From Actinomycetota bacterium (GTDB lineage: Bacteria > Actinomycetota > Acidimicrobiia > Acidimicrobiales > Microtrichaceae), in contig SXMI01000057.1 of the NCBI GenBank assembly GCA_005777415.1, positions 1 to 33,473 on the forward strand: a DNA stretch of 33,473 nucleotides, in the 5' to 3' direction. A program made the translations under genes and the position numbers. The notes beneath the pieces were generated by a model. It saw only the letters and a list, made by a program, of their open reading frames with translations. It ran no database searches and was not told the DNA's origin. Positions 546 through 32,183 of the stretch are shown here, piece by piece. The stretch's first letter is position 1. Each line of letters begins with the position of its first letter.

Positions 546-758
546 GGCTCAGCCGATGCGCCGGCCCTCATCGTGGATCCGGTGTGTCGGGCATGGGAGG
601 ATGAACCCGGTGGATCCCCCAGTCACCCGTCGGTCCGCTCGCGGTGCCGTGGCCCCGTCGGCGGGGTGCCCCGCTGCTGGATCGCTCGCTCTGGCGGTCG
701 TGACGAGCGCGGACCGACGGTGCGCGGCCCTCCTCGGGGAGGGTCCGCCGTGGTTGCG

Positions 759-1700
759 GTGAGCGAATCCGTCTCGGTGTTGGTTCCGGTGCTGAACGGG
801 GAGCAGACCATCGGCGAGCTGGTCGCCCGTACCCGAGCAGTGCTCGATGAGCACGGCCGCGAGCACGAGATCATTCTCATCGACGACGGCAGCACCGACG
901 GCTCCTGGCAGGTCATGGACGACCTCGCCCGTTCGGAAGCCGACGTCGTCGCCATCGGCCTCAGTCAGAATTTCGGTCAGCACAACGCGCTGCTCTGCGG
1001 TATCCGGGCGGCCCGGATGGACACGATCGTGACGATCGACGACGACCTGCAGCACCCGCCGAGCGAGGTCCCGCTGCTCCTCGATGCCATCGAGCCGGGC
1101 GTCGACCTGGTCTACGGGCGCGCGCAGCACTACCGGCACGGGGTGTTCCGTCGAGCGAGCATGGTGATCCTGAAGTTCCTGCTCGAGCGCTGGTTCCGGG
1201 TGCCCTTCGCCCAGCAGACCACGTCGTTCAGGGCGTTCCGGACCTCACTCCGTGACGCATTCGACGAGTCGCCGGGACGCGAGTTCTCGCTCGACGCACT
1301 CCTGATCGCGTCGACCCGGAACGTCACCAGCGTCGTCGTGCGCCACGACCCCAGACGGACCGAGCGGTCCAGGCACACGCTCGGGACCCTGATGCGACAC
1401 GTGACGGACTCCATCGCCGGGTCGTCGTTCGCTCCGTTGTTCTTCGCCTCGGCACTGGGGTCGCTCGTCCTCGCCGCCGGGCTGCTCGGTGCCCTCGGGT
1501 GGACCGTGGCCGCCGTGGTCGGAACCCAGCCGTCTCCGTGGTGGATCGCCGTGGCGGCCGTCGGGGTGCTGTGGGGCGTCACACTGTTGGCGCTGGGGCT
1601 GTTGGGCAACTACGCGGCTCGACTCCTGATGCGCTCCAGTGGTCGTCGTGCGTTCGTGGTGGCCCGGTCCACGGGCCTGGAGGGCCGGCCACCCGAGTGA
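759..1700 (+). CDS. Family 2 glycosyltransferase, polyprenyl-phosphate sugar transferase type (DPM1/ArnC/GtrB-like) with C-terminal TM pair
   Basis: GTG start; VSVLVPVLNGEQTIGELV, IILIDDGSTDGS, GLSQNFGQHNALLCGI, TIDDDLQHPP motifs; two hydrophobic C-terminal helices. Confidence 0.9.
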   Translation: MSESVSVLVPVLNGEQTIGELVARTRAVLDEHGREHEIILIDDGSTDGSWQVMDDLARSEADVVAIGLSQNFGQHNALLCGIRAARMDTIVTIDDDLQHPPSEVPLLLDAIEPGVDLVYGRAQHYRHGVFRRASMVILKFLLERWFRVPFAQQTTSFRAFRTSLRDAFDESPGREFSLDALLIASTRNVTSVVVRHDPRRTERSRHTLGTLMRHVTDSIAGSSFAPLFFASALGSLVLAAGLLGALGWTVAAVVGTQPSPWWIAVAAVGVLWGVTLLALGLLGNYAARLLMRSSGRRAFVVARSTGLEGRPPE

Positions 1701-1855
1701 GGACCACTGCTGCGGCGGAGTGGATCCGTGGTACGTGGGGTACCCTCGAGGAGGTGTTCCGGGCCCGGCGACGACCTGTTGCGAGCGGCGACCAGCCGTC
1801 CGCCGGATCTGGTGGTCCCGTGGGCGGCGAGCGCCCGGGGGCGGGCGAGCACACG

Positions 1856-2665
1856 ATGTATGCCGGTCTCCGGGATCGGGGCTACGTCACGGTGGACCTG
1901 CTCGACGAGGTGGAACTCCAGGAGGTGCGGGCCGTCCGCAACCGCCTCGGCGTCGCGCCGGGGGATCCGCGTACGGGGTTGTTCAATGACACGTGGTCGA
2001 CCGACACCGGCTACAAGCGGGCGGTCTCGGAGGCGATGGACCGGGTGTTCGCCCCGGCCGTGCAGCGAGTGCTGCCCGACCACCGGTCCCTCGGATTCGT
2101 CCACATCGTGAAATGGCCGGGCGAAGCCGGTGACGTGGTGGCGCATCGGGATCCAACCTTCGTCGACGAGGACCGCTTCCGCTCGATGATGGTCTGGTGC
2201 GCGTTGGACGACGTGACCGTCGAGACGGGTGCGCTGTGGGTCGTGCCGGGCAGTCACCGAGCGGCGACGGGCGTGCGCGGCCACCAGTGCGAGGAGAACC
2301 TGTACCCGGAGGTGAGCGCGGATCGACCTCGGTACGCCGTTCCCCTCGAGCTGCGGGCCGGGTCGGCCGTCCTCTACGACCACGCACTGGTCCACACGTC
2401 CGGCCCGAACCGCTCGTCCGACGAACGGGTCGCGATTGCCGGGGTGCTCGTCCCCGACTCCGCCGCGCCCCGCTACGCCGTTCCGAACGGCCCTGCTGAG
2501 CTCAGCACGGTTGCCATCGACGAGCAGTTCTTCATCGACCATCGGCTCAGCCACCTGGACCCCGACGCCGTCGCTGCGTCGTGCGCACCGCTCGGCACCG
2601 CAGTGCGCCGAGCCCGACCGCCCGTGGAGCCGCTCGCACCCCCGCCGCCGGCTCGTCGAGGGTGA
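1856..2665 (+). CDS. Phytanoyl-CoA dioxygenase (PhyH)-like Fe(II)/2-oxoglutarate oxygenase
   Basis: HRDPTF (HxD), ETGALWVVPGSHR, DHALVHTSGPNRSSDERVA distal His and Arg; start ATG inferred. Confidence 0.8.
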   Translation: MYAGLRDRGYVTVDLLDEVELQEVRAVRNRLGVAPGDPRTGLFNDTWSTDTGYKRAVSEAMDRVFAPAVQRVLPDHRSLGFVHIVKWPGEAGDVVAHRDPTFVDEDRFRSMMVWCALDDVTVETGALWVVPGSHRAATGVRGHQCEENLYPEVSADRPRYAVPLELRAGSAVLYDHALVHTSGPNRSSDERVAIAGVLVPDSAAPRYAVPNGPAELSTVAIDEQFFIDHRLSHLDPDAVAASCAPLGTAVRRARPPVEPLAPPPPARRG

Positions 2666-4023
2666 GACCACAGGTGGAACGAGGGAGCGACACGGTCGAA
2701 TCGTCGCCGGCGGTCGGTCTGCCTGTGACCGACCCGGAGCGGTCCGGCGGCGGGTCGGGGACGTGGCTCGGGTTCGACATGGCCGTGCTGGCCGTCGCGC
2801 TCCTCCACGCGCTCGTGTTCGCCCCGGTGGTGCTCTCGGCGTTGTTCCGGCCGAGGATGATCGTCCCGAACCTCTGGCTCGGTCACGCCGCCATGATCTC
2901 CGAGACGTTCCGGGATCCGCTCAGGCCCAACCAGCCCCACTTCGGTTGGCACCTCGCCAGCCGCGTCGTGAACGTGGTGCTGCCCGGCAGCGACCCTCGT
3001 GTCGCCGCTGCGGTCGTCTCGATCGTCGCGGCCGCCGGCCTCGGCGCAGCGCTCTACTGGATCCTCCGTCACTCCGACGACGGCTCCGTACTGCTCTCCC
3101 GTTGGGCGGCGGCGGGGGTGAGCGTCGCCGTCGCGCTGATGGAGAGTCCAGCGGCCATCCAGGGGTGGGAGGCGCTCCTCACCCCGCGGACCAGGTTCGT
3201 GCCGTTGTACTACTCGTTCGTCCCGACGACGCCGGCGGTGATGGGGCTGAGTGTCGCGCTCGTGTGGATGAGCGCGCAGTTCGTTCGGGGTCGGCTCCGG
3301 GCCCGACGGCGCCTGCTGCTGCCTCTGCTCGTCGTGGCGACGGCGATCGTGAAGCCGAGTCTGGTCCCTGCGCTGGCAGTGGTCGTGCCCGTGTGCGTTG
3401 TGCTCGTCCGGCGAACGCGACTCGGGCTGGTGGGCGAGCGTCACGGGAGCGTCGCCGACGCGATCCGCCTCGTCACGGTGCCGGCCGTCCTCGTCCTGGC
3501 GTTCCAGTTGTCGGTCGCCGTCTGGTTGAGTCCGGCGGACCGTGCGGGAGGCTTTGAGTTGCGACCGTTCTGGGAGCTGGGCGAGATGGGTGGTTTCGGC
3601 TGGCAGTTCTGGCTGGTCCTGATGTTCCCCGTGGTGGCGTTGATCCTGCTGCGTCGACGGCTGCTCGATGACGTCGCCGTCCTGCTCGGTCTGGGTCTCT
3701 TCTCGGTCGGGCTCGTGGCCACTCTGCTCTTCGCCCGATCCGGTCTCACGATCTATAAGGGGGCGAACGGCGGTGACATCCTCCAGCTCGCCGCTGCGGG
3801 CTCCACAGTCCTGCTCATCTATGCGCTTCGTCGGGTGATCGTCCTGGTCCGGGATCGTTCGCTGTCTCGGGCGACGATCGTGGTGCTCGCGCTCGCGCTC
3901 GTGCCGTATCTCGCCGCGGGGGTGTCGACCTACCGGTGCCAATCGGGACTCGTCGCGTGCTACCCCGCCGAGCTCGCCCCGCCCTGGCCCCAGACTCCTC
4001 TGTCCGGGTCGGTGGGCGGCTGA
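2662..4023 (+). CDS. Polytopic membrane protein (possible GT-C/Wzy-like), related to the product of 9942..11300
   Basis: GTGA overlap with upstream stop; many hydrophobic segments; shared motifs with 9942..11300 (KPS, T/P-rich YxxxPT, GDxLx). Confidence 0.75.
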   Translation: MRPQVERGSDTVESSPAVGLPVTDPERSGGGSGTWLGFDMAVLAVALLHALVFAPVVLSALFRPRMIVPNLWLGHAAMISETFRDPLRPNQPHFGWHLASRVVNVVLPGSDPRVAAAVVSIVAAAGLGAALYWILRHSDDGSVLLSRWAAAGVSVAVALMESPAAIQGWEALLTPRTRFVPLYYSFVPTTPAVMGLSVALVWMSAQFVRGRLRARRRLLLPLLVVATAIVKPSLVPALAVVVPVCVVLVRRTRLGLVGERHGSVADAIRLVTVPAVLVLAFQLSVAVWLSPADRAGGFELRPFWELGEMGGFGWQFWLVLMFPVVALILLRRRLLDDVAVLLGLGLFSVGLVATLLFARSGLTIYKGANGGDILQLAAAGSTVLLIYALRRVIVLVRDRSLSRATIVVLALALVPYLAAGVSTYRCQSGLVACYPAELAPPWPQTPLSGSVGG

Positions 4024-4070: not shown

Positions 4071-5378
4071 TCAGTCCAACCGGTCGCCGTCGGGTCCCGT
4101 CGGGTTGGTTCCGGTGGCTGTCCCCAGGGTCACGCTGGCCATCGGGCGCAGCCGGGCCAGGCTCCGGGTGAGCCGGTGGAGGGCGCCGGCCCGGACTCCC
4201 GGGTGGCACGGCAGGTAGAGGGCGTGTTGCTTGACCGCTCGGGCCACCGGGTGGTGACAGGATGACGGCTCGCACTCGCACACGAGTCGGAGGTTCGTGC
4301 CGGCCGTGTCGAAGCCGTCGGCTGCGAGACCTCGCTGTACCCGCTCGACGTCCTCGATGTACGCAACGCACTGCCAGTGCACGTGGTGGCCGCCGTCGGA
4401 GCCGGTGGGAACCGGGACACCGAGGTACCGGAGGGTGGCGCGGATCTGCTCTGCGTTCGCCACTCTGACCCGGTCCGTTGCGGCGACCCCGGGGAGCAGT
4501 TCGAGGCCGACGGACGCCTGCTGCGCCGTGAATCGTTCGAACCAGGGGTCACTCGGCCCGGTCGGCGCCGACTGCGGTTTCCTCGCTCCGGAGATCGTCT
4601 GCTCGACTCCGGGATGTCGTCGCCGCAACCATCGGACCAACGGGAATGTCGCCACGGTCCATGCTGCGTGGCTACTGGTGAGGTTCCAGACCAGGGTGCC
4701 CGACACCTTGGCGAGCAGTCTCGAGCGGGGCGTGACTCGGAGTTGGGTCTGAGCGCGGCGGAGTCGGGCTGCCAGATCTGCATCGTCGGTCACGGCGAGT
4801 CCGCCCCCGTAGGTGTCGAGGGTCTTGGTGGCCGACGAGCTGTAGATGCCGACGTCCCCGAATGCTCCGGCCTGCCTGCCGTCGACGGTGGCACCGAGGT
4901 TGTGCGAGAAGTCCTCCACGATCCTGGCACCAACTGCTCGTGCCGCCTCGATGATCGGGGTCGGGTCCGACGCGATCCCGAACAGGTAGGTCAGCATCAC
5001 CACCCGTGTTCGTTCATTCAGGTGCTCCACGAGTTGCGCTTGATCGAACAGCAGCGTGCCGGGGTCGATGTCCACCACGACGGGCTGGCACCCGACGCTG
5101 CGCACGGCATCGACCATCGGCTGGATCGTGATCGGCGGGAGGATGACCTCGGAGCCGGGTGGGAGATCCATCGCCTGCAGGGTCGCGAGAAACGCTGATC
5201 TCGCGAACGGGAAGGCGATGCAGGTGCCGACCCCGAGGTGGTCGGCGAAACGCCGCTCGAACGCGGTGACGACGCCGTCGCCCGCGGCGTCACCGGGTCT
5301 GCTCCGGATGGCAGCACGGAGCAGATTCCGTACGTCGAAGCGGACGGTGTGGTTGATGCACGTTCGTGCGACGGCCAC
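4071..5378 (-). CDS. DegT/DnrJ/EryC1-type PLP aminotransferase
   Basis: PGSEVILPPITIQPMVDAVRSVGCQPVVVDID, VEDFSHNLGATVDG, SSSATKTLDTYGGGLAV (candidate PLP Lys), LPCHPGV; GTG start preceded by GGGAGG, 4 bp after the stop of the oxidoreductase. Confidence 0.85.
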   Translation of the reverse strand: MAVARTCINHTVRFDVRNLLRAAIRSRPGDAAGDGVVTAFERRFADHLGVGTCIAFPFARSAFLATLQAMDLPPGSEVILPPITIQPMVDAVRSVGCQPVVVDIDPGTLLFDQAQLVEHLNERTRVVMLTYLFGIASDPTPIIEAARAVGARIVEDFSHNLGATVDGRQAGAFGDVGIYSSSATKTLDTYGGGLAVTDDADLAARLRRAQTQLRVTPRSRLLAKVSGTLVWNLTSSHAAWTVATFPLVRWLRRRHPGVEQTISGARKPQSAPTGPSDPWFERFTAQQASVGLELLPGVAATDRVRVANAEQIRATLRYLGVPVPTGSDGGHHVHWQCVAYIEDVERVQRGLAADGFDTAGTNLRLVCECEPSSCHHPVARAVKQHALYLPCHPGVRAGALHRLTRSLARLRPMASVTLGTATGTNPTGPDGDRLD

Positions 5379-5382
5379 CCTC

Positions 5383-6966
5383 TCAGCCTCCCTGTACGGA
5401 TTCGTGGACGATCCGCGTGGCGTTGGCCATGGTGACCAGAGCCAGGGTGGTGGCCGGGATCGACGGCAGGACCGACGCGTCGACGACGTGGGTCCGATCG
5501 AATCCGCGGGGCCGGCCCAGCACGTCGGTGTCGAGGGGCGCTTCCCGTCGGTCCAGCATGGGCATGGAACCCCCGAAGTGCCAGGAGATCGGCTCCGGAC
5601 CGACCATGGGGCCGATGGGAGGCAGCACCTGCAGGCCGGCCTGCCTGAGGAGTCGACGGAGGTGTTCGGCTGCTCGTCGGGCCGTTGCCGGGAACGACGG
5701 CATCGGGACGGTGTCGACAACCATCCGGTGGCCGGCCGGTTCGTCGCGCTCGAGGGTGAGCACGTGGTGTCCGGCGTCGTCGGAGTGCATGGAGCAGAGC
5801 GCGACCAGGAACTGTCGGGCGATCCGGTCAGTGGCCCCGCTGGGCAGGTGGAGGCGTGCGGTGAGGTGGGCCAACCGACCTGTCGCCAGTTCGTTCGGCG
5901 GCGACACCTGGGCGTGGATCCAGTGCGGCGACGCCGGGGTCCGGAACTCGACGAAACAGGCCGCGAGCGTCATGGCCGCTGCCGGTTCCGGCGCCCGTCC
6001 CGGGACGAGGATCGGTGCGACAAACCCCTGGGTCGACAGGAGTCGGACCGGGTGATCCCACAACTCGAGCGTTTCGAGCATGATCCTGGTCGAGCCGATC
6101 GGCCCGCCGGCGATGAACAGTCGGTCACCGGTGATCCGTTCGGTCCGCCCATCGACGGTGACGCACCGGACGACGACTCGCCCTGAAGTCTCCTCGATCG
6201 TCCGCACGGTCAGGCCGGGGCGGTACTCGACCACGCCCGAGGCCACGAGCGGGTCCAGATGGTGCGTCGCAGCGTCGATCGACCCGTAGGCGCAGCCGCT
6301 GTGGCACATGCCGCAGTAGCGGCACGATCTCGGCGAGGAGTGCCCGCCGGTGACGGCAAGTCGGGAGCGCCCGAACACGATGTCCGGATCGCTGGTCAGT
6401 GGTGAGGACTCGAGACGGTTGAGCACGAGCTGTGCTGTGGGGGGGATGGTCAGCTGGTCGATCGAGTCCCGGTAGACCGGGAACTCGGCCTCGAGGCCGT
6501 CCCGGGCTCCGGACAGCGGCATCGTCCGGAGTACCTGTCGGTAGTGCGACGCCAGGTCGGCCCGGTCGATCGGCCAGCCCTCCATGTCGTTGTCGTGGGT
6601 CGGCAGGACGGCCGCACCCCACACGTTGCTCCGGCCGCCGCGGGCGAGTGAGGCCACGGGAGCGAACGGGAAGCGTCGGACGGTCGGCAGCGGCGGGACG
6701 CCGTCGGGCTCGTAGACGTGGTCCGACCCGAAGTCGAGCCGCCTCGGGAGCGGGTCGCCGAGGGTTGGGTTGCGGCTGATGAGGTCGACGCTCGTCTCGT
6801 CCCAGTCCGGCGGGTCGAGCCGACCGAGTCGGGCGACCACTCGGAGGCGGTCCTCGTCGAGCACCCGACCGACGTCGACCATCACCGTGGACCGACCCAG
6901 GCGGGCGAGTTCCGTCGCCGCAGCGACGCCGGCATGGCCGCTGCCGATGACGATCGCGTCGGTCAC
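5383..6966 (-). CDS. GMC-type FAD-dependent oxidoreductase with CX2CX2CX3C motif
   Basis: N-terminal IVIGSGHAGVAAATELARLGRSTVMVDVG Rossmann; HFGGSMPM and VVDASVLPSIPATTLALVTMANATRI C-terminal GMC signature. Confidence 0.88.
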   Translation of the reverse strand: MTDAIVIGSGHAGVAAATELARLGRSTVMVDVGRVLDEDRLRVVARLGRLDPPDWDETSVDLISRNPTLGDPLPRRLDFGSDHVYEPDGVPPLPTVRRFPFAPVASLARGGRSNVWGAAVLPTHDNDMEGWPIDRADLASHYRQVLRTMPLSGARDGLEAEFPVYRDSIDQLTIPPTAQLVLNRLESSPLTSDPDIVFGRSRLAVTGGHSSPRSCRYCGMCHSGCAYGSIDAATHHLDPLVASGVVEYRPGLTVRTIEETSGRVVVRCVTVDGRTERITGDRLFIAGGPIGSTRIMLETLELWDHPVRLLSTQGFVAPILVPGRAPEPAAAMTLAACFVEFRTPASPHWIHAQVSPPNELATGRLAHLTARLHLPSGATDRIARQFLVALCSMHSDDAGHHVLTLERDEPAGHRMVVDTVPMPSFPATARRAAEHLRRLLRQAGLQVLPPIGPMVGPEPISWHFGGSMPMLDRREAPLDTDVLGRPRGFDRTHVVDASVLPSIPATTLALVTMANATRIVHESVQGG

Positions 6967-7033: not shown

Positions 7034-7705
7034 TCACTCGGCTCCGGAGCCGATCGCGGCGGTCACGTCGTCGGCCCGGACCCCCCGGCTCCGGTCCCGA
7101 CGCTTCCTGAGCCACAGTGCGATCGGAACCGCGGCGAGGCTGAGCACGGCGAGTCCCACAGTGGCCGGTCCCGGGAAGGCGATGCCCACGGCGACGAGCG
7201 CACCCTGCAGTGCGCTCAGCAGTCCCAGCGCCGTGGCGACGACGAGGGCGTAGACGGTGAGCTCCCGTCGGCTCCGCCGCACGGGCCCGAGGTGACGTGC
7301 CCACGTCGTGACGGCGGTGCCTCCCAGCACGGCGAGGCCCGGGACGAATGCGGGGTGGACCGGACCTCGGTCGGCCAACCAGGACTGCAGGCGTTCGCGG
7401 CCCTCGGCGGCGATGCGCCGCCGTCGACCGGGCATCGACGTGACGAGGACCGCTGCCGAGACCCCTGCTGCCGCTTCGATGATCAGGGTGGTGAGCCCGT
7501 AGGCGAGCGCTGCCGCGGCCGGTGAGCCGAATGCGACCAAGGACCAGGCGAGCACGGCGAGTCGAACCGGTTGACTGACAGGGGACAGCTCGAAGATGAC
7601 GAGGAACCACATCAGCGACTGCACCCCCCACGAGGGAGCAGGGTTGAGGCCCGTCGCCGATGCAGGATCGTCGCGAGCCTCCGCCGCCTCCACTCCGGAC
7701 CTCAC
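7034..7705 (-). CDS. Small hypothetical membrane protein
   Basis: GTG start overlapping (GTGA) the upstream methyltransferase stop; several hydrophobic helices; no recognised family. Confidence 0.6.
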   Translation of the reverse strand: MRSGVEAAEARDDPASATGLNPAPSWGVQSLMWFLVIFELSPVSQPVRLAVLAWSLVAFGSPAAAALAYGLTTLIIEAAAGVSAAVLVTSMPGRRRRIAAEGRERLQSWLADRGPVHPAFVPGLAVLGGTAVTTWARHLGPVRRSRRELTVYALVVATALGLLSALQGALVAVGIAFPGPATVGLAVLSLAAVPIALWLRKRRDRSRGVRADDVTAAIGSGAE

Positions 7706-8508
7706 CCGCCGTCACGGGCGACCGCGCCCGTCCCCGGACGTCCAAGGGCTGGCTCGGTCCCGCGCCGCGCCACCACCCAACATCCCGTGCCCCGAGGTGG
7801 TCGAACTCCACGTCGGGCGGCGGCGTGCTCGAGTCGGGCGAACTGGTAGGCGGCCTGATCGAGGCTGCGGTTCGCGAGTTCGGTCGGTGGGTGGTCGGCG
7901 GGCTTCGGTCGCCGTCGACTCTGCCAGGCCAGCAGCCGCGCAATCGGCCAGGCCCAGCCGTGGACGTACCGGGCGTCGACGACGTGGAGTCCGCTGGAAC
8001 GGACGGACTCGGTGAGGTCCTCCAGTTCGAACCTGCGGACGCTGCTCCCCGAGAGGTCGATCTGTCGCCGGAGCCGTTCGTCGGCCGGTTCGTCGATCAG
8101 GAGCCCACCACCGGGTGCGACTGTGGCTGCGAGGCGTCCGACAGCGGCGCTCGGATCGGGGACCGACGCCTGGTTCAGGGCCCCGAAACAGCACACGAGG
8201 TCGAAGGTCCGACCACCGAGGAGCTCGTCCAGATCGTCGAGTCCGCCGAGATGGAACGTTGCGTCCGGCACCCGCTCGCTCAGGTACCGGCCGGCGACCG
8301 GAGACGGGTCGATCGCCGTGACCGGCCCGACGGCGGCGAGCGTCGCAGTGGTGCCCCCAGGTCCACAACCAACATCCAGGACCGCGTGACGACCATCGCG
8401 CTCGATCCCGAGTCGGTGGAGCGCGTCGTCGATCAGCAGTCGCCGGGCGCGAAAGAACCAGTGCCACGTGTCGATGGACGCGAGCCCCTCGATCTGGTCG
8501 CTCAACAT
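7702..8508 (-). CDS. SAM-dependent methyltransferase
   Basis: HAVLDVGCGPGGTTATLAAVGPVTAIDPSPVAG, FDLVCCFGALNQ, VAPGGGLLIDEP. Confidence 0.88.
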   Translation of the reverse strand: MLSDQIEGLASIDTWHWFFRARRLLIDDALHRLGIERDGRHAVLDVGCGPGGTTATLAAVGPVTAIDPSPVAGRYLSERVPDATFHLGGLDDLDELLGGRTFDLVCCFGALNQASVPDPSAAVGRLAATVAPGGGLLIDEPADERLRRQIDLSGSSVRRFELEDLTESVRSSGLHVVDARYVHGWAWPIARLLAWQSRRRPKPADHPPTELANRSLDQAAYQFARLEHAAARRGVRPPRGTGCWVVARRGTEPALGRPGTGAVARDGG

Positions 8509-8650
8509 CAGCCGCACTCCGCCTGCCGAACCCGCTCCGGGCCCACTGTACGCAATCAGCCCTCGGGTTGGCCACGGCGAGCCGGCCGTCTGGAGTGGGG
8601 ATCCGAGCGGTTCCACTTCCCCCGGCTGCAGCCCGAGCAGCCCTGTCGCC

Positions 8651-8674
8651 TCGACCGCTCAGTCGAGCGGTCGA
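8651..8674 (-). terminator. Hairpin overlapping the RCC1-lipoprotein stop codon
   Basis: Perfect 10-bp inverted repeat TCGACCGCTC-agtc-GAGCGGTCGA; a second 6-bp stem GGCTGC/GCAGCC lies at 8624-8642; no U-tract. Confidence 0.5.
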
Positions 8675-9699
8675 CAGTCCACAGCACCACGAAGGGCGAC
8701 CGTGCACAGGGACGATCCGACGATGTCGAGGTCGACCACGTCGTCGACGTCGGACTGCTCCACCCGGGCTGGCGACCTCGGTCCCCAGCAGACGATCCCC
8801 TCGCCGGTGAGGGCGCAGCTCGCCGTTTCGCCCACGGCGACGGCGGTGGCGCCGCGGACCCCGTCGATCGGGGCTGCCGTCGGTGGTCGGATGGTCGGTG
8901 GCCGGCCCAGCGGCGCGTCGACCTGGGCCCCCCAGCACCACACCGATCCGTCGTCCCGGACAGCGCACGTCGTGGCGAGTTGGGAGTCGATCGCCGTCAC
9001 CCGATCGAGCCCCGTCACGGCGACCGGCTCGGTCCGGTCGACCCGGTCGCCGGTGCCGAGTTGGCCGACGCTGTTCAGGCCCCAGCAGCCGACCGTGTCC
9101 CGAACCGACAGTGCGCAGCTGAATCCGGCACCGGCGGAGAGTGCGACGGTGTCGGCGGCCCCCTTCGTGCGTGCTGGGACGAGTCGTGTCGTCCTGCTCC
9201 CATCACCGAGCTGACCCGAGTCGTTCGCTCCCCAGCACCGAACCTGGCCGTCGGCGGCCACTGCGCACGCGTGGCTCCGCCCGGTCGACAGTCCGACCGC
9301 CCCGGTCACCTCGGGCACTGCCGTGGTGGGACCACCGATCGTCAGGGTGCGACCGTCACCGAGTTGCCCTTGATAGTCCAGTCCCCAGCAGCGCACCTCT
9401 GCACGCTGTGCCACGGCGCAGGAGAAGTCCTCACCGACCGAGAGCAACTGGACGTCGCTGATGCCGTCCACTGTCCGGAGCTCGTCGAAGGAGTTCTCGG
9501 TGGTTCCGTCACCGAGCTGGGCGGTTCGGTTGTCCCCCCAGCAGGCGACTGTCCGGTCGACCCGGAGGACGCAGGCGTGCCGGTAATCGGCAGCGATGGC
9601 GGTCGCCTCGGCGTCGAAGGAGACATCGATCCGGTTGCACCCCACCAGCAGCAACGTGCCGAGCACGATGGCGAGTGGCGTCCGGTGGGGCAGCGTCAC
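8659..9699 (-). CDS. RCC1-repeat (seven-blade beta-propeller-like) lipoprotein
   Basis: Signal peptide with lipobox TLLLVG-C; repeated CxV...V.CWG...GQLGDG units, seven Cys pairs. Confidence 0.85.
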   Translation of the reverse strand: MTLPHRTPLAIVLGTLLLVGCNRIDVSFDAEATAIAADYRHACVLRVDRTVACWGDNRTAQLGDGTTENSFDELRTVDGISDVQLLSVGEDFSCAVAQRAEVRCWGLDYQGQLGDGRTLTIGGPTTAVPEVTGAVGLSTGRSHACAVAADGQVRCWGANDSGQLGDGSRTTRLVPARTKGAADTVALSAGAGFSCALSVRDTVGCWGLNSVGQLGTGDRVDRTEPVAVTGLDRVTAIDSQLATTCAVRDDGSVWCWGAQVDAPLGRPPTIRPPTAAPIDGVRGATAVAVGETASCALTGEGIVCWGPRSPARVEQSDVDDVVDLDIVGSSLCTVALRGAVDCRPLD

Positions 9700-9941
9700 G
9701 TCTCGATCAGTCCTCGTGGGTTGCGCCGCTGACGTACTGCGCTCGGGTCACCGACGGCCGTGCGGTGTGCCGTACCCGGCCCCGCCGGCGACGTGCGCCC
9801 CGGAGACCACGTTGCGACGGTGCGGTACGATGACCAATGTAGGCGGTGGATCCAAGGACCGGCGGGCACGGCGGACCATCCGGGCGGGGCGGTGGCGCAG
9901 GGTCCGACCATGGGCTGTGGCGTCGGGAGGAGCAGCAACGC

Positions 9942-11300
9942 ATGGGTCGGTCGGCGGGTATCGAACCAGGAGTCGGGAGGTCACCTGTCGGCGGCTCCGA
10001 CCCCCGGGACGACCGAGCGCCGGAGGTCGACGATCGACCTTCCGAGGCCTCACCACTGATGGCACTCGACCGTCGGGACCCGGCCATCGTCCGAGTCCGG
10101 TTGCTCGTCGGTGCAGTCGTGTCGCTCATCTACTTCCCCGTGGTGTGGTCGGTCGCCCTGCGAACCGACATGGAGGCCCATCTCTTCACGGCCGAGCAGA
10201 TCGGGATCTCGGGCCAGGGGACCGGTCCGTACGGGTTGTTCGAACAACTGACCATCGCCGTGCGCGCGCTCCTCCCGGTCGGGGAACTCGGGTTGGTCGC
10301 CCCGGCGATGTCCGATCGCGTGTTCACCTGGGACCTCTCCGGAGTGTTGGTCGTCGTCGGCGCCGCAGTGGTCACCGCGGACCTGGTTGTGCGCCGCCTC
10401 GTCAACGCCATGGAGCAGGGTGGCCGGTCCCGTGTCGCGCTCTCGAGCGGTCTGGCGACGGTGGGCCTGATGGTCGTCACGCCGGTGACCCTGCTCACCG
10501 TTGCGCAGCAACACCTCTACGTTGGGTACGTCACCGTGACCATGTACCACAACCCCACGGTGACGCTGTCCCGGCCGTTCGCGATCGGGCTGTTCTGGCT
10601 GGTGGCGTCCCGGATGTACGGCCGCTCGAAGCTGACGACCGTCCTGTTGACCGTTGCTGTCTCGGTGCTCGTTCTCATGGCGAAGCCGAGCTTCACGACC
10701 TGCTTCCTCCCTGCAGTCGCGCTCGCCCTCCTCTGGGGGTGGCGTCGCCTTCGTTCCGTCGACTGGCGTCTGGTCGGGCTCGGATTCGTGTTGCCGTCGG
10801 TCCTGCTGCTCGCCGTCCAGTTGGTGCGCAGTCCGACGGGCGACTCGTCCGGCCTGGCGCTTGCGCCGCTCGTCGTGTTGCGTCGACTGGTGGAGCAGCG
10901 GGCCTCGTCACCGTGGTTCTTCCTGGTGTTCCTCCTCGCATCGACTCTCTTCCCCCTCACTGTGCTCGTCTGCGTCTCTGGTGCCTTGCGGGAACGGCTC
11001 CTACGACTCGCCTGGCTGACGCTGTTCGTGGCGCTGGGGTACTTCTTGCTCCTCGAGATCACGGTCTATGTCGATCCGGGCGACTTCCTGTGGGGCGCCC
11101 AGGTTGGGTTGTTCCTGGTGTTCATCGAGTCGACGGCGGTCGCGCTGCGGGTGCTCGGTCCAGGCGCCGGACTGGGCGGAGAACTCGATGGCAGTCTCAC
11201 CGTCCGTCGGCTCGTCACTGGCTCGGCCTTCGCACTCCACGTGGGATGTGGTGTCCTCTTCGCTGTGGTCGAGTACCTCCAGCCGGCGCGCTGGTGGTGA
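9942..11300 (+). CDS. Polytopic membrane protein (possible GT-C/Wzy-like), related to the product of 2662..4023
   Basis: ATG preceded by GGGAGGAG; many hydrophobic segments; TMYHNPTVTLSRP, MAKPSFTT, VDPGDFLWGAQ motifs. Confidence 0.8.
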   Translation: MGRSAGIEPGVGRSPVGGSDPRDDRAPEVDDRPSEASPLMALDRRDPAIVRVRLLVGAVVSLIYFPVVWSVALRTDMEAHLFTAEQIGISGQGTGPYGLFEQLTIAVRALLPVGELGLVAPAMSDRVFTWDLSGVLVVVGAAVVTADLVVRRLVNAMEQGGRSRVALSSGLATVGLMVVTPVTLLTVAQQHLYVGYVTVTMYHNPTVTLSRPFAIGLFWLVASRMYGRSKLTTVLLTVAVSVLVLMAKPSFTTCFLPAVALALLWGWRRLRSVDWRLVGLGFVLPSVLLLAVQLVRSPTGDSSGLALAPLVVLRRLVEQRASSPWFFLVFLLASTLFPLTVLVCVSGALRERLLRLAWLTLFVALGYFLLLEITVYVDPGDFLWGAQVGLFLVFIESTAVALRVLGPGAGLGGELDGSLTVRRLVTGSAFALHVGCGVLFAVVEYLQPARWW

Positions 11301-11335: not shown

Positions 11336-12520
11336 TCAGCTGTCGAGGACTCCCCGGATCCAGTATGCGACGGCGCTTGCGACGGCGCTCGAGCTTCGGG
11401 TCGTTCGTACCTGTCGCGCCCCTGAGCCACCGAGTGCCCGGCGGCGGTCAGGTTGTCTGGCCAGGTCGACGATCGCCTGTGCGAGACCGACGACGTCCGG
11501 GTACTCCACGACAGTGCCGCAGGATCCCTCGGCGATCAGCTCCGTGACGCCGCCCGAGTCGAACGCCACGATCGGGAGGCCCCAACCGGCGGCCTCGGCG
11601 GTCACCAATGGAGCGGCGTCCTCCTTCGCTGTCGACAGCAGGATGTCGGCGTTCGCGAACTCCCGGGCCGGGTCGGTCAACGGTCCGGAGAAGGTCACGA
11701 CGTCGCTCAAGCCGAGCCGAGCGACCTCGAACTCGAGTGGCCACCGTGCCGGGTCATCCCCGGTCCCCCCGCCGAACCACCGGAACTGCCAGTCGATCTC
11801 CGGGGCGAGTCTCCGGCAGTGGTACGCGGTGACGACGAACAGTTCGGGCGCCTTGCGCCAGTCGGCCACACCCCCACCCAGGACGACGCACCGGTCGTCG
11901 ATGCTGGAACGATCCGGGATCGAGTCGGGTGGATCGACCGGAGGTGGGACCACGGTGACCATCTCCGGATCCACGCCGTGGTGGTCGACCACGTAGTCGC
12001 GCACGGCACCGGAGACCGCCAGGACGGCCCGGATCCGGGAGAGCAGTAGCCGCCGGTCCTCGCGGTCGAGGTTCCCCATCCATCCGGTCGACAGTTCGTG
12101 TCCGATGAGCGCCGTCGGTGCTTCGGGCACCATCCGCAGCAGTCTTACTCCGTCGGCGGTTGCCCCGTTGAGGAGCAGGAGGTCGGCCGGTTGGTTGCCG
12201 ATGCGCCGCAGGCTCAGCGAGCGGAGCACCGCTTGTTCTGCGGTCGGACCAGCCAGACGCCCGGCCACCCGACCGAGCCGACGATCTGGGGAGCGGAGGT
12301 CGAGGCGGGCCGTCCGGACCTCGCTCAGTTGCTCGTAGTCCGGCCGCAGTCCGCCAGGACGGGCCAGCACGACCTCGGTGTCGAAGCCGGGGTCGCTCGC
12401 CCGCCAGGCCCGGAGCAGACGGAGCAGGACGATGGGCGGCCCGCTGCGCTCGGCCCCGTGGGCCAGGAACCGGACCCGCGGTCGTCCCGTCGGTCGATCA
12501 GCCGAACTGGCCGTTGGCAC
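11336..12520 (-). CDS. Family 4-like glycosyltransferase
   Basis: VLAVSGAVRDYVVDHHGVDPEMVTVVPPPVD, FANADILLSTAKEDAAPLVTAEAAGWGLPIVAFDSGGVTELI; start (GTG) uncertain, short overlap with the upstream gene. Confidence 0.85.
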   Translation of the reverse strand: MPTASSADRPTGRPRVRFLAHGAERSGPPIVLLRLLRAWRASDPGFDTEVVLARPGGLRPDYEQLSEVRTARLDLRSPDRRLGRVAGRLAGPTAEQAVLRSLSLRRIGNQPADLLLLNGATADGVRLLRMVPEAPTALIGHELSTGWMGNLDREDRRLLLSRIRAVLAVSGAVRDYVVDHHGVDPEMVTVVPPPVDPPDSIPDRSSIDDRCVVLGGGVADWRKAPELFVVTAYHCRRLAPEIDWQFRWFGGGTGDDPARWPLEFEVARLGLSDVVTFSGPLTDPAREFANADILLSTAKEDAAPLVTAEAAGWGLPIVAFDSGGVTELIAEGSCGTVVEYPDVVGLAQAIVDLARQPDRRRALGGSGARQVRTTRSSSAVASAVAYWIRGVLDS

Positions 12521-14414
12521 CGTGGCCCGGCCCCGGGAGCGGTGGCGGTGTGACCGCCGAGTTGGAGGTGCCCGGTCCGGCGCTGAACGGCCCGGCGGCC
12601 GGCCCACTGGTGGGCACGACAGGCGGTGGTGCCTGCTGGGCGGGCGTCGTGACCGGATCGACGGTCGGCGGCGCCGGGGTCGCTGGAGGTGTGCTGGGCG
12701 CCGGAGCGGGCGGTGCCGTCGTGGCGGCCTGCTGCACCATCTCGGGCTCGAGTCGGGGCACGTCGGCCTTCTCCTTGCGGAACCGGCGTCGCTTGTTCTC
12801 CTTGATGCCGTAGTACTCGTAGAGCGAGCCGTAGGAGCCCTCGCCCGAGACGCCGTTGAGGATCGTCCCGACGATCGGACTGTCGACCTGACGCAGCCGC
12901 TCGAAGCACTGCTTGAGCTCTCGCTTGGAGGTCTTGCCGGAGGTGGCGATCACGAGGCAGGCGTCCGAGAGTCGGGACAGGACGAGCGAGTCGGTCACGG
13001 GGAGCACCGGCGGGCAGTCGAGCAGGATGATCTGGTGGCTCGGCCGCAGGGCGTCGATCACCTGGGCGGTGCGGTCGAGCGACAGGAGCTCTGACGGGTT
13101 CGGCGGCCGCGGCCCCGAGGGGAGCACTCGGATGTTCGGCTGGTTCGGCGCCTGCTGCACCGCCTCGTTGAGCGTCGCCGAGCCGACCAGCACCGACGTC
13201 AGACCGACGGAGCCGTCGACGTCGAAGAACTGGTGGATCCTCGGTCGGCGGAGGTCGCAGCCGATCACGACCACCGACATGCCGGCGTCAGCGAAGGCGA
13301 CGGCCAGATTGGCGACGGTCGATGTCTTGCCCTCTCCCGATGTCGCGCTCGTCAGCTGGATCACCGACATCTGACGGTTGAGTGCCAGGTACTGCAGCGA
13401 GGTCCGGATGCCGCGGTACGCCTCGGCGGTCACCGACATGGGTGAGCTGACCGTCGTGAGCCTGGGTTCGTCCCGGTTCTTCCAGTCGTCGTCGGTCGGG
13501 ATCAGTCCCAACGTGGGGAGACCCTTGCTGACTCGCTCGACGTCGGACGGGGCCCGGACGGAGTCGTCGAGCTGGTCGAGCAGGAAGGCCAGCCCGATGC
13601 CGATGAACATGCCGATCAGGGCGGCCTGGATCAGGTCCCTGATCAACTTGGGTGACACCGGGGACCCGGGGACCGTGGCCGGGTTGAGGATCTGGACACC
13701 GCCGGTGGTGGTGAGCCGCTCGGACAGCTGCAGGATCTGGAGGCGCTGCTGATAGTCGTTCAGCTGGGTCTGCAGTTCCTCGCGCTCGGCGCTGATCCGG
13801 TTGTTGAGGCGCTCCCGTTCCTGGACCGCCGTCACGTACTCGGGCGATTCCACCGGCAGGGTGGCGATGCGGTCGTCGAGCGCTGCGAGGGGCTGGTTCA
13901 GCTCGTCGACCTGCTTCTGGAAGTCGTTGATCTGCTGGCTCAACACCTCCTTCGACTTGGCCAGGTCGGCCACGATCGCGTTGAGGCGTTCGGACTGGTA
14001 GGTCTCGGCGTACAGGTTGACCTTCTCCGCCGCCACCACCGGGTCGGTGTCGGTGGCGCTCAGGATGATGATGTCGTCCTCGCCCCCGGACGCTGCGCTG
14101 ATGGTGATGGCGACGCCGTTGTTGGCCTTCTTGACGGCGTCCCGGATGGCGAGCGAGTTGATGATCTTCAGCTCGTTCTGGACGGCTCGGGTGGGGTCCA
14201 CCACCTGGGCCGACGGCTGGAAGATCGACTCCGACTGCTTCGACTGCAACAGCAGCTGCGCCGACGCCTGGTACACGGGCGTGGACGTCAGGTCGATGGC
14301 GGCGATCACGCCCATCGAGATCAGCATCGTGATGACGATGACCGGCCACCGGCGCTTGAGCACCGAGAGGTACTCGCCGATGTTGTTCTCGGTCGTCTCC
14401 TGCATGGGTTGCAT
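12498..14414 (-). CDS. Wzz/CpsC-CpsD type chain-length determinant fused to BY-kinase (polysaccharide co-polymerase)
   Basis: N-terminal Wzz domain with TM (EYLSVLKRRWPVIVITMLISMGVIAAI), Walker A SATSGEGKTSTVANLA, Walker B IILLDCPPVLPVTD, Tyr cluster YGSLYEYYG, Pro-rich tail. Confidence 0.92.
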   Translation of the reverse strand: MQPMQETTENNIGEYLSVLKRRWPVIVITMLISMGVIAAIDLTSTPVYQASAQLLLQSKQSESIFQPSAQVVDPTRAVQNELKIINSLAIRDAVKKANNGVAITISAASGGEDDIIILSATDTDPVVAAEKVNLYAETYQSERLNAIVADLAKSKEVLSQQINDFQKQVDELNQPLAALDDRIATLPVESPEYVTAVQERERLNNRISAEREELQTQLNDYQQRLQILQLSERLTTTGGVQILNPATVPGSPVSPKLIRDLIQAALIGMFIGIGLAFLLDQLDDSVRAPSDVERVSKGLPTLGLIPTDDDWKNRDEPRLTTVSSPMSVTAEAYRGIRTSLQYLALNRQMSVIQLTSATSGEGKTSTVANLAVAFADAGMSVVVIGCDLRRPRIHQFFDVDGSVGLTSVLVGSATLNEAVQQAPNQPNIRVLPSGPRPPNPSELLSLDRTAQVIDALRPSHQIILLDCPPVLPVTDSLVLSRLSDACLVIATSGKTSKRELKQCFERLRQVDSPIVGTILNGVSGEGSYGSLYEYYGIKENKRRRFRKEKADVPRLEPEMVQQAATTAPPAPAPSTPPATPAPPTVDPVTTPAQQAPPPVVPTSGPAAGPFSAGPGTSNSAVTPPPLPGPGHGANGQFG

Positions 14415-14427
14415 CGAGTCCCCCCGC

Positions 14428-14445
14428 CCGGGACCTTCGTCCCGG
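14428..14445 (-). promoter_or_regulatory. Leader hairpin just upstream of the BY-kinase start
   Basis: Perfect 7-bp inverted repeat (mRNA sense CCGGGAC-GAAG-GTCCCGG) 13 nt upstream of the ATG. Confidence 0.35.
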
Positions 14446-14500
14446 CGCTCTGGATGTCGGAGCCAAGTATGCCGGTGGTCGACGCGCTATTGCGATCGGT

Positions 14501-15667
14501 TCAGGTGGATTTGCCCACGCCGTCCGGGGTGAGGACCCGCTCGAGCATCCGGTCGTAGATCGACTCGATCGTCGCCGTGACGATCCGTTGGTCGTAGGTG
14601 GCCTCGACGGCCGCCCGTCCCCGCGCCCCCACGGCCCGCCGCTCGTCCGGTGACAGATCCAGCAGCTCCCGGATGGCATCGCCGACCTCGTGGGCATCAC
14701 GTGGTGCCGGGGTCCACCCCACTCCGGTCCCGCGCACCTGTCGGGTGATCTCGCCGGTGTCCGTGGCGACGAACGGCAGAGCACTGGCCATGTACTCCAG
14801 GACCACGAGTGGCCCGGTCTCGTTCTTGGAGGTCACGAGGCCGGCGTCCGCTCCGCGCAGCACCTCGGGCAGGTCGTCGCGTGGGCCTGCGATGGTGAGG
14901 AGTTCGTCGACACCCAGGTCGGCGGCCATGGAACTGCACCCGGCGAAGTACTCGGGGTCGGCGGTGGTGCTCCCCACGACGACGACCGAGCAGCGAGCCC
15001 GCTCGGCTTCGCTCAACGTCGCCAGTGCCCGAAAGAGGGTGGGGTGGTCCTTCTGGGGTCGGAAGTTCGCCACCATCACGAAGACGACGGTGTCGTCCGG
15101 GAGCCCGAACTCGCGGCGGAGGTCGAGTGGCTCCACGTCGGTGAACCGGTCGACATCGACGCCGCTGCGGACAAGGTGGACCCGCTCTGCCGGCAGACCC
15201 GCGGCGGCGACCGCCCAGTCGCAGAGCCGTTGGTCCACGCCCAGGTAGTCGTCGACGCCCCGCTGGACCGCCTCGCGGAGGCTCCGTGGCGCGCTCCGGT
15301 TGACGTGGAGCCAGCCGAAGTGGTCGTGGAAGACGTGTGGGAGGTCGACGGCGCCGAGGACCCGGCTGAGGGCGATGAACTTCATGGTGCCGCGACCGTG
15401 CGAGTGGATCAGGTCGATCTCCCGGTCGCGGACGAGTTGCCGGAAGGTGAGCACCTTGCGCAGGTCCCACGTGGCCGTGCGGCCCAGCGACACGTGCGCA
15501 ACGTCCGGGGCGAGCACGTCCACCAGCGGACCGCCTGAACGGGTGCTGCAGAACGTCACCCCGAACCGGTCCCGATCGAGGCTGTTCGCGATGTCGACGG
15601 CGACGCGCTCTGCGCCGCCCAGGTTCATCGAGTCGTTGACGACCAGCACGTTCGTCCGCTCAGGCAC
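14501..15667 (-). CDS. Family 4 glycosyltransferase
   Basis: NLGGAERVAVDIANSL, LIHSHGRGTMKF, ANFRPQKDHPTLFRAL, SKNETGPLVVLEYMASALPFVATDTGEI; GTG start overlapping upstream stop. Confidence 0.92.
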   Translation of the reverse strand: MPERTNVLVVNDSMNLGGAERVAVDIANSLDRDRFGVTFCSTRSGGPLVDVLAPDVAHVSLGRTATWDLRKVLTFRQLVRDREIDLIHSHGRGTMKFIALSRVLGAVDLPHVFHDHFGWLHVNRSAPRSLREAVQRGVDDYLGVDQRLCDWAVAAAGLPAERVHLVRSGVDVDRFTDVEPLDLRREFGLPDDTVVFVMVANFRPQKDHPTLFRALATLSEAERARCSVVVVGSTTADPEYFAGCSSMAADLGVDELLTIAGPRDDLPEVLRGADAGLVTSKNETGPLVVLEYMASALPFVATDTGEITRQVRGTGVGWTPAPRDAHEVGDAIRELLDLSPDERRAVGARGRAAVEATYDQRIVTATIESIYDRMLERVLTPDGVGKST

Positions 15668-19762: not shown

Positions 19763-21045
19763 TCCGCTCGGTTCTGCTCGTCACCCAGTACTACCCGCCC
19801 GAGCGCGGCGCGGCGCAGGTGCGACTGGGTGCCATCGTGCGCGAACTCCGGCGCCGGGACCTCGACGTCGAGGTGCTCACGGCGCTGCCGAACTACCCGA
19901 CGGGCCGGATCTTCCCGGGGTGGCGCCAACGGCTCCTGCAGTACCGGGACGAGGACGGCGTCCGGGTCGGGCGGGTGTGGGTCTACGCCGCCATGGGCAG
20001 CGGCCCCGCTCGGATGGCCAACTACCTCTCCTTCGGGTTGACCTCCGTCCTGGGTGTCCTGCGCTCCCGGCGGGCCGACTGGACCGTGGTCGAGTACCCG
20101 ACGCTGTTCGGGGCGCTCCCCGCGGTGGCGCTGTCGCGACTCCGCCGCCGCCGCGTGGCGCTGCTCGTGGCCGACCTGTGGGTGGACTCCATCGTCGAGG
20201 TCGGCGCCGCCGGCGACGGAGTGCTCGTCGCCGTCCTCCGGCGGGTGGAGCGCTGGATGCTCCGTTCGGCCGACCGGGTCACGGCGGTCACCGAGGGGGT
20301 GCGCGACGCGCTCGTCGCCAAGGGGGTGCGTCCCGATCGGCTGGCCTGGCTCCCGAACGGTGCCGACACCGACCTGTTCTCCCCGGGCCCCGAGGACCCC
20401 GCGCTGCGGTCGCGCTTCGGGCTCCGCGACGACTCCGACGTCGTCCTCTACGCCGGCACCCACGGCTACGTCCACGGTCTGGAGGTCGTCCTCGACGCCG
20501 CCGAGGCGCTGGGCGACCGTCCCGTCGAGTTCCTGCTGGTCGGGAGCGGCTCGGAGAAGCCACGCCTGGTCGCCGAGGCGGCCTCACGGGGACTGGCGAA
20601 CGTGGTGTTCGCCGACCCGGTCGACCCGGAGACCGTGGCCGAGCTCCTCCGCACCGCACGGATCTCGCTGGCGACGGTCCGCGAGGGGGACCTGTACCGC
20701 ACCATCCGGTCGGCCAAGATGCTGCCCGCCATGGCCGCAGCGGTCCCCGTCGTCTACAGCGCCGACGACGAGGGGTCGCGCATCGTCCGCCGCGAGGGGG
20801 CCGGCATCGTCACGCCGCCGGGGGACGGGGCGGCACTGGCCGATGCGGTCGCCTCGCTCCTCGACGACCCGGACCGGGCGGCCGCCCTGGGCGCCGCCGG
20901 GCGGGCCTGGGTGGAGTCCGAGGCCAGCTGGCGGCGACTCGTCGGCGACTGGTTGGCCGAGCTCGACCCGGCGGCGGCCGCATCCCCTGGGCCGCCGGCC
21001 GCCCGCCCGGTGGGGTCGTCAGGAGCCGGGGGTCGGTCGTCGTGA
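19759..21045 (+). CDS. Family 4 glycosyltransferase (WbuB/CapM-like)
   Basis: VLLVTQYYPPERGAAQVRLGAIVREL, WLPNGADTDLFSP, VLYAGTHGYVHGLEVVLDAAE; GTGA overlap. Confidence 0.92.
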   Translation: MIRSVLLVTQYYPPERGAAQVRLGAIVRELRRRDLDVEVLTALPNYPTGRIFPGWRQRLLQYRDEDGVRVGRVWVYAAMGSGPARMANYLSFGLTSVLGVLRSRRADWTVVEYPTLFGALPAVALSRLRRRRVALLVADLWVDSIVEVGAAGDGVLVAVLRRVERWMLRSADRVTAVTEGVRDALVAKGVRPDRLAWLPNGADTDLFSPGPEDPALRSRFGLRDDSDVVLYAGTHGYVHGLEVVLDAAEALGDRPVEFLLVGSGSEKPRLVAEAASRGLANVVFADPVDPETVAELLRTARISLATVREGDLYRTIRSAKMLPAMAAAVPVVYSADDEGSRIVRREGAGIVTPPGDGAALADAVASLLDDPDRAAALGAAGRAWVESEASWRRLVGDWLAELDPAAAASPGPPAARPVGSSGAGGRSS

Positions 21046-22439
21046 ATCGTCAGGACCTCTACCGGCGCCTCCCGCTCCCGGCGCAGCAGGCCATGGCGGC
21101 GGCCTACGGCGTCGTCCAACTGCCGATCCGCCACGGCGGACGGTTCCGGTCCGACGTCCGGGACCTCGACGCCCGACAGTGGTGGTCGCCGGACCGCCTG
21201 CAGCGGGACCAGGACCAGCGCGTCCGCGCGATGGTCCTCTGGTGCGCCCACCGGGTGCCCCACTACCGGGACCTGTTCGCCGAGCTGGGACTCGACGCCT
21301 CGGACGTGCGCACCGCAGCCGACCTGGCGCAACTCCCCATGCTCGACAAGGAGACGGTCCGGGCGGATCCCGAGCGGTTCCTGCCGGATCCCCCGCGGCC
21401 GAAGCTCGTGGCGCAGACGACCGGCGGGACGACGGGCACCCCGCTCGCGTACTGGGCCACGAAGGATGCCGTCCGGTTCAACTACGCCACCTACGAGAGC
21501 CGCACCCGGGCCTGGTCGGGGGTCCGCTTCGGTGACCGCATGGCGTCGTTCCACGGTCAGCCCATCGTCCCCGCCGGCCAGGAGCGCGGTCCGTTCTGGC
21601 GCCGCAATCCGGCGTTCAACCAGCTCTACTGCTCCGTGTACCACCTGAGCGACGCCAATCTGCCGGCGTACCTCGACGCCCTGACCGCCTTCCGGCCAGT
21701 GGTGCTCGCCGGCTACACCTCGGCGATCCACCGGCTCGCCCAGTACGTCCTGCGGGTGGGCGACACGGACCGCATCCGGCCCCGGGCGGTGATCGTGAGC
21801 TCCGAGACCCTGCTCCCGGCGGCCCGCGCCGACATCGAGTCGGCGTTCGGTTGTCCCGTCCACAACGCCTACAGCCTGGGCGAGCTCGTGGCCTACGTGT
21901 CCGAGTGCGACTTCGGCTCCATGCACGTGTCGACCGAGTACGGGGTGCTCGAACTGCTCGACACGGACGAGTCGGCGGGGACCGGTCGCCACGAGATCGT
22001 CGCGAGCGGACTGTTCAACCGGGCCATGCCGCTGCTGCGCTACCGGACCGGGGACACGGCGGCGCCGGCGACGACGACCTGCGAGTGCGGACGGGGCCTG
22101 CCGACCGTCGACGAGCTCACCGGCCGCTCCGACGACGTCGTGCACACGCCCGACGGGACGATCGTCGGGCCGGCACCGATGAGCCTGGCCTTCCAGCGGG
22201 TCCCGAATCTCCGCCGGGCGCAGGTCCATCAGGACCGGGTCGAATCGATCCGGGTCCTGGTCGAGGTCGATGAGGACTTCACTGTCGACGACGAGTCGTT
22301 CATGGTCGCCGAGCTCGCCAAGCGGCTGGGCACGGCGCTCGAGATCGACGTGGAACGCGTCGACTCGCTGCCTCGGACCTCTGGCGGCAAGGAGCGCGTC
22401 GTCGTCTCGACCCTCGCCCGGGATCGGGGCGACCGGTGA
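21042..22439 (+). CDS. CapK-like / phenylacetate-CoA ligase-like adenylate-forming enzyme
   Basis: AMP-binding motif QTTGGTTGTPLAYW; YSLGE, CECGRGLPTVDELTGRSDDVV. Confidence 0.9.
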   Translation: MNRQDLYRRLPLPAQQAMAAAYGVVQLPIRHGGRFRSDVRDLDARQWWSPDRLQRDQDQRVRAMVLWCAHRVPHYRDLFAELGLDASDVRTAADLAQLPMLDKETVRADPERFLPDPPRPKLVAQTTGGTTGTPLAYWATKDAVRFNYATYESRTRAWSGVRFGDRMASFHGQPIVPAGQERGPFWRRNPAFNQLYCSVYHLSDANLPAYLDALTAFRPVVLAGYTSAIHRLAQYVLRVGDTDRIRPRAVIVSSETLLPAARADIESAFGCPVHNAYSLGELVAYVSECDFGSMHVSTEYGVLELLDTDESAGTGRHEIVASGLFNRAMPLLRYRTGDTAAPATTTCECGRGLPTVDELTGRSDDVVHTPDGTIVGPAPMSLAFQRVPNLRRAQVHQDRVESIRVLVEVDEDFTVDDESFMVAELAKRLGTALEIDVERVDSLPRTSGGKERVVVSTLARDRGDR

Positions 22440-25602: not shown

Positions 25603-25612
25603 GTCGGCACTG

Positions 25613-27799: not shown

Positions 27800-27802
27800 G
27801 TC

Positions 27803-31872: not shown

Positions 31873-31876
31873 CGCC

Positions 31877-32173: not shown

Positions 32174-32183
32174 GGCGTACCCC

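Follow-up and report, generated by a model that had tools for sequence, protein, structure and literature searches.

Bacteria normally build their amino sugars at the nucleotide-sugar level, using NAD(P)-dependent chemistry. The known relatives among DegT aminotransferases use NDP-keto sugars supplied by NAD-dependent dehydratases and need no GMC enzyme; within the family, the catalytic lysine separates an expected transamination from PMP-dependent dehydration. In aminoglycoside biosynthesis, C6′ amination is carried out by a dehydrogenase together with a PLP-dependent aminotransferase, as in KanQ/KanB, GenQ/GenB1, and the pathway of the FAD-dependent AprQ (PMC5461906). The genes for TobQ and TobB are adjacent in the tobramycin cluster, the best match of TobQ being a GMC oxidoreductase and that of TobB a class III aminotransferase (PMC8304502). 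A lipid-linked sugar is known to be oxidized and then reduced by DprE1/DprE2, the decaprenylphosphoryl-ribose 2′-epimerase (PMC10307805). In the Burkholderia FAD glucose dehydrogenase, Cys212, Cys218, and Cys222 are the ligands of a 3Fe-4S cluster (PMC6719666). No account of GMC/DegT pairs in polysaccharide loci turned up in the open-access literature, which does not by itself prove novelty.

Here we analyze such a pair in a window of 33,473 nucleotides (the whole stretch of DNA studied), which is a contig of a high-GC actinobacterial genome that is 67% complete. The features around the pair are as follows.

15-545: second methyltransferase domain, cut by the window edge
756..1700, plus strand: GT2 glycosyltransferase, ArnC-like, with two C-terminal TM segments (NF007986)
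1853..2665, plus strand: PhyH-family oxygenase (Pfam)
2581..4023, plus strand: MPa, about 9 TM segments, no Pfam match
4071..5378 (stop at 4071), minus strand: DegT/DnrJ/EryC1/StrS aminotransferase, 435 aa, GTG start (PF01041)
5383..6966 (including stop), minus strand: GMC-fold FAD dehydrogenase, 527 aa, GTG start (fold and profile search)
7034..7705, minus strand: MP223, 223 aa, ~4 predicted TM segments, no Pfam match, genus-restricted in the data examined
7702..8508, minus strand: MT268, SAM methyltransferase (Methyltransf_25/23, Pfam)
8659-9699, minus strand: RCC1-repeat protein bearing a lipoprotein-like signal (LVGC); lies upstream of MT268
9846..11300, plus strand: MPb, about 9 TM segments, no Pfam match

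The two minus-strand genes that the initial annotation had placed 4 bp apart are indeed found at 6966-5383 and 5378-4071, the gap running from the TGA stop of the GMC gene (5385-5383) to the GTG start of the aminotransferase gene at 5378. A longer aminotransferase reading frame from 5720 appears in the ORF list and was dismissed as mechanical overlap, the alignment of homologues beginning at GTG 5378. Comparison with a congener gave dN/dS values of about 0.07/0.40 for the GMC gene and about 0.08/0.43 for the aminotransferase gene (a ratio of about 0.2 in each case), and both genes are under purifying selection. A consensus scan for promoters and terminators returned no matches.

The PhyH oxygenase, two methyltransferases, and small membrane protein noted earlier as neighbors are all present. 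The MP223 gene overlaps the stop of MT268 by 4 bp; a kinship of MP223 with the flippase-like LPG_synthase_TM proteins was considered and dropped, as similarity gives it no support. MT268 can be counted as part of an actinobacterial module because its homologue overlaps the GMC gene at a related locus in another genus of the same family (L023). The GT2 protein matches NF007986 over its full length with 144 bits, which is under the equivalog cut-off of 529, and has counterparts close to the pair at three distant loci (L027, L028, and L029, described below). MPa is possibly a GT-C-like transferase, and MPb occurs, among 61 searched genomes, only in three congeners, all of which carry the pair. 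Two congeners retain the synteny of the RCC1-repeat gene. The polysaccharide locus continues at 12498-14414 and 24245-26773, where a Wzc-like tyrosine autokinase, a low-molecular-weight phosphatase, and a bacterial sugar transferase are encoded, along with a second, ordinary PseC/ArnB-like DegT protein (25613-26773). Beyond the glycan locus, at about 27300-33000, the ORFs resemble by eye subunits of respiratory complex I (nuo).

The GMC protein falls below the Pfam cut-offs for both domains of its family (GMC_oxred_C, 20.3 bits against 24.6; GMC_oxred_N, 17.5 against 23), and a PDB search with its sequence alone found no match. A profile of its family, when run against the PDB, retrieves the Burkholderia FAD glucose dehydrogenase (E 2.7e-9) and cholesterol oxidases. 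Foldseek searches with the AlphaFold (AF2) model (pLDDT 89.6, pTM 0.92) match GMC enzymes down to E 8e-21, led by FAD glucose and fructose dehydrogenases, with the sugar dehydrogenases outranking cholesterol oxidase. Judged by predicted fold and profile, the protein is thus a member of the GMC superfamily. Residues 8-13 (GSGHAG) form the GxGxxG motif of an FAD Rossmann fold. Further along is a cysteine motif, C215-x2-C218-x2-C221-x3-C225, of which C215, C221, and C225 occur throughout the 42 aligned relatives, and C218 in 41 of them. The C-x5-C-x3-C spacing of the invariant residues is that of Cys212/218/222 in glucose dehydrogenase (PMC6719666). Because these cysteines are spaced like the 3Fe-4S ligands of the closest PDB fold, the enzyme probably works as an FAD/Fe-S dehydrogenase and not as an O2 oxidase, and an oxidase analogy is probably wrong.

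The catalytic pair that a GMC enzyme should retain, a histidine followed by histidine or asparagine, is preserved in its first half only: His463 is found in 42 of 42 relatives, while the second position (507, as assigned from the family-profile alignment to PDB enzymes) is threonine in 38, serine in three, and proline in one. The residue at this position does vary among flavoenzymes of the fold. Like the Burkholderia glucose dehydrogenase alpha subunit and the Gluconobacter fructose dehydrogenase, both of which act on sugars and give the top fold matches, the protein may bind an iron–sulphur cluster, the cysteine spacing being shared with the former. It differs from them in its 12-16% identity, its extra cysteine (C218), its threonine in place of the second His/Asn, and its anabolic context. 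No gene for a gamma (hitchhiker) or cytochrome c subunit lies beside it, the flanking genes encoding instead a methyltransferase, MP223, the RCC1 protein, the DegT and PhyH proteins, and polytopic proteins; as these accompanying subunits are missing, we do not class it with the direct-electron-transfer glucose and fructose dehydrogenases.

The aminotransferase is recognized far more readily, scoring 143 bits against PF01041 (cut-off 19.8). The matches to its AlphaFold model (pLDDT 81.5) are GDP-perosamine synthase, WbpE, Fic25, and ArnB. The lysine picked out earlier as the candidate catalytic residue is K185; both it and D156, the PLP lysine and aspartate, are invariant in 16 aligned aminotransferases, and transamination is therefore predicted from these residues rather than PMP-dependent dehydration. 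Although fold and PLP lysine are shared with GDP-perosamine synthase, WbpE, and ArnB, these enzymes are partnered by an NDP-sugar dehydratase instead of a GMC dehydrogenase, and they do not have the hydrophobic hairpin of ~40 residues that is inserted after residue 218. This hairpin (insertion at about residues 218-280, with two helices modeled at residues 218-254 with moderate confidence) is also extra relative to the ordinary DegT proteins of the same loci, and it is confined to the branch of the pair's aminotransferase and its nearest DegT relatives. It may contact a membrane or a lipid. A broader hairpin-bearing branch without a GMC neighbor occurs in Planctomycetota and Gammaproteobacteria (L094-L099).

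The pair is carried, with the entire neighborhood syntenic, by three of the six examined genomes of the genus, and since the other three lack it, it is accessory in the genus. The locus of one congener (L025) has three PhyH-like stretches within less than 7 kb (14348-15016, 19833-20522, and 20719-21276). At L023, proteins with 46% (GMC), 50% (methyltransferase), and 49% (aminotransferase) identity are neighbors; the methyltransferase gene overlaps the GMC gene, the aminotransferase gene is convergent to the GMC gene, the methyltransferase gene lying between these two, and GT2 and PhyH genes adjoin. When 84,980 species genomes were scanned, distant tandems turned up in a Methylobacter (L028) and in MAGs of a planctomycete (L027) and a member of the Pseudomonadales (L029), all in the order aminotransferase then GMC, with overlapping reading frames in L029. 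In L027, a fragment similar to APS kinase, apparently a remnant, separates the two genes (8452-8601). The distant pairs are surrounded by polysaccharide genes (GT2, polytopic proteins, sulphotransferase, and GDP-sugar enzymes), and glycosyltransferases are found near every pair.

Phylogenies of the two proteins agree with one another. The seven aminotransferase-linked members group in one clade of a 44-protein GMC tree (SH-aLRT 99), three long branches flagged as unsure all falling outside that clade, and their seven DegT partners form a single clade as well (support 100/99). Both trees divide an actinobacterial half from a planctomycete/gammaproteobacterial half, which is consistent with a two-gene unit that has been co-inherited, in part by horizontal transfer. 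A profile of the aminotransferase subfamily, built from pair members and therefore liable to miss diverged unlinked ones, gives 640-700 bits for these, whereas no other gene in 1,010 genome draws (Gammaproteobacteria, Planctomycetota, and Actinomycetota) exceeds 237 bits. The weaker relatives (L094-L100, up to 237 bits) were rejected as further pairs, their fetched flanks containing no GMC gene. No aminotransferase of the pair's branch lies near the same-class GMC relatives G300, G250, and G387 (on contigs of which two are short), and a plasmid search with the aminotransferase gave no match at 1e-25. Altogether, the pair extends over five lineages in three phyla; gene order changes between them, and the setting is a glycan locus throughout. 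The initial annotation's expectations of joint conservation and of a glycan-locus setting are thus borne out, with the pair absent from half of the examined genomes of the genus.

Most relatives of the GMC protein have another kind of partner. An SDR of the NAD-dependent epimerase/dehydratase fold is adjacent in 30 of 39 other loci with GMC relatives, and the clusters of L028 and L029 contain, besides the aminotransferase–GMC tandem, a further GMC gene with an SDR. The loci of this GMC family are L030-L069, L028:3150-4730, L029:17987-19567, L101, and L102. The family is widespread: its genes, whose products have a conserved cysteine motif, stand beside NAD(P)-dependent SDR genes in glycan loci from Actinomycetota, Mesorhizobium, Mycobacterium, Rhizobium, and Azospirillum. 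GMC matches on Azospirillum and Rhizobium plasmids were rejected as pairs, their neighbors being an SDR or an NAD(P)-dependent oxidoreductase and not aminotransferases. Loci from Geodermatophilaceae and Pseudonocardia (L048, L049, L054, L056, L058, and L063-L065) have the GMC gene without a detected adjacent SDR or aminotransferase. LPG_synthase_TM proteins are encoded in the plasmid loci L101 and L102 as well as in L028 and L029. By eye, some SDR-linked loci resemble Wzx-type clusters.

The SDR partnership resembles the arrangement of DprE1/DprE2, in which a flavoenzyme oxidizes a hydroxyl of the sugar and the keto intermediate is handled by another enzyme. GMC and SDR could similarly be an oxidize-then-reduce epimerase pair. 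DprE1 is not known to be a GMC enzyme, the product of DprE1/DprE2 is an epimer and not an amine, and a carrier lipid is putative at our loci. Partnership with either an SDR or an aminotransferase is what one would see were the flavoenzyme to generate a carbonyl, and the GMC family looks, from these gene associations, like an oxidation module that is completed by a reductase or an aminotransferase.

Starting from the observed genes, folds, catalytic histidine and lysine, co-inheritance, and glycan-locus setting, we propose, with a probability of roughly 0.6, that the two genes encode consecutive steps, in which the GMC enzyme oxidizes a hydroxyl of an envelope-glycan sugar and the DegT enzyme aminates the resulting carbonyl. 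The GMC enzyme, with FAD and the putative iron–sulphur cluster, would take a hydride from a hydroxyl of the sugar being built into the glycan, His463 serving as base; the electrons would leave through the cluster to an acceptor, and the aminotransferase, carrying PLP on its Lys185, would turn the aldehyde or ketone into an amine. The cluster, the order of the steps, and the sugar substrate are what we infer. Oxidation by a flavin route followed by amination was the reading of the initial annotation; it is partly supported, by linkage, glycan loci, and the catalytic His and Lys, and the more frequent pairing of GMC relatives with SDRs has to be added to it. Four points argue against the proposal: Thr/Ser replaces His/Asn as the second catalytic residue of the GMC enzyme, no cytochrome or gamma subunit gene is adjacent, the L023 genes are convergent with a methyltransferase between them, and the known DegT relatives do without a GMC partner.

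We regard a competing explanation as unlikely though not far-fetched: the aminotransferase would be a conventional NDP-4-keto-sugar enzyme (perosamine/WbpE-like), and the GMC enzyme would act on another substrate of the same pathway, so that the two share only a locus. NDP-sugar aminotransferases are the nearest structures, DegT genes are common in glycan loci (the window itself having its second, ordinary one), and L028 encodes a GDP-mannose 4,6-dehydratase. However, one specific DegT branch, set apart from ordinary DegT proteins by its hairpin, accompanies this clade of GMC proteins across three phyla and five lineages, with shifting order and congruent trees, and the distant loci already contain an ordinary DegT as well. 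It is improbable that the GMC enzyme instead oxidizes a lipid (a sterol, hopanoid, or fatty alcohol) and that the product is an amino-lipid and no sugar. Cholesterol oxidases are among its profile and fold matches, and the ORF directly upstream of the GMC gene in L023 appears by eye to be sterol-desaturase/fatty-acid-hydroxylase-like, but sugar dehydrogenases rank higher and have the Cys motif in common, sugars or cyclitols are the usual substrates of functionally known DegT aminotransferases, and all pairs have glycosyltransferases close by.

The aminoglycoside precedent invoked in the initial annotation is real: in BtrQ/Neo11-type C6′ amination, a PLP aminotransferase aminates what a dehydrogenase has made by oxidizing a sugar alcohol (PMC5461906, PMC8304502). 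Because the C6′ aminotransferase (TobB) is of class III and that of the pair is a DegT protein, the system is a mechanistic analogue of the pair and not kin; its substrates, moreover, are soluble antibiotic intermediates rather than an envelope glycan. A pathway for a secreted aminocyclitol- or aminoglycoside-like small molecule, embedded beside the envelope locus, is improbable. The shared GMC-plus-aminotransferase logic and the presence of PhyH and methyltransferases, which are frequent tailoring enzymes, speak for it, whereas no 2-deoxystreptamine gene, cyclitol synthase, carrier domain, or resistance gene was recognized among the ORFs of the window, and the distant pairs accompany polysaccharide genes.

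For the proposed oxidation and amination of an envelope-glycan sugar, it is speculative that the substrate is held on a polyprenyl (phosphate) carrier. The idea comes from the hydrophobic hairpin of the aminotransferase together with the nearby ArnC-like GT2 and flippase-like genes; it is not general, because the GT2 of L023 has no TM segments and some SDR-linked loci resemble Wzx-type clusters. In its broadest form, an Fe-S flavodehydrogenase would edit a sugar bound to a lipid carrier, and an SDR (giving an epimer) or a hairpin DegT (giving an amine) would finish the reaction, which we put forward as a tentative idea. Were it true, monosaccharide identity would be set on the carrier and not on the nucleotide sugar.

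A conserved pair of Fe-S flavodehydrogenase and DegT aminotransferase would constitute a second route to amino sugars in surface-glycan loci, one in which electrons would exit through an Fe-S cluster and not NAD(P). The SDR-partnered sister arrangement suggests a general module for editing by oxidation. If the substrates are lipid-linked, nucleotide-sugar genes alone would not predict glycan composition, and the pair could serve as a tool for the amination of alcohols.
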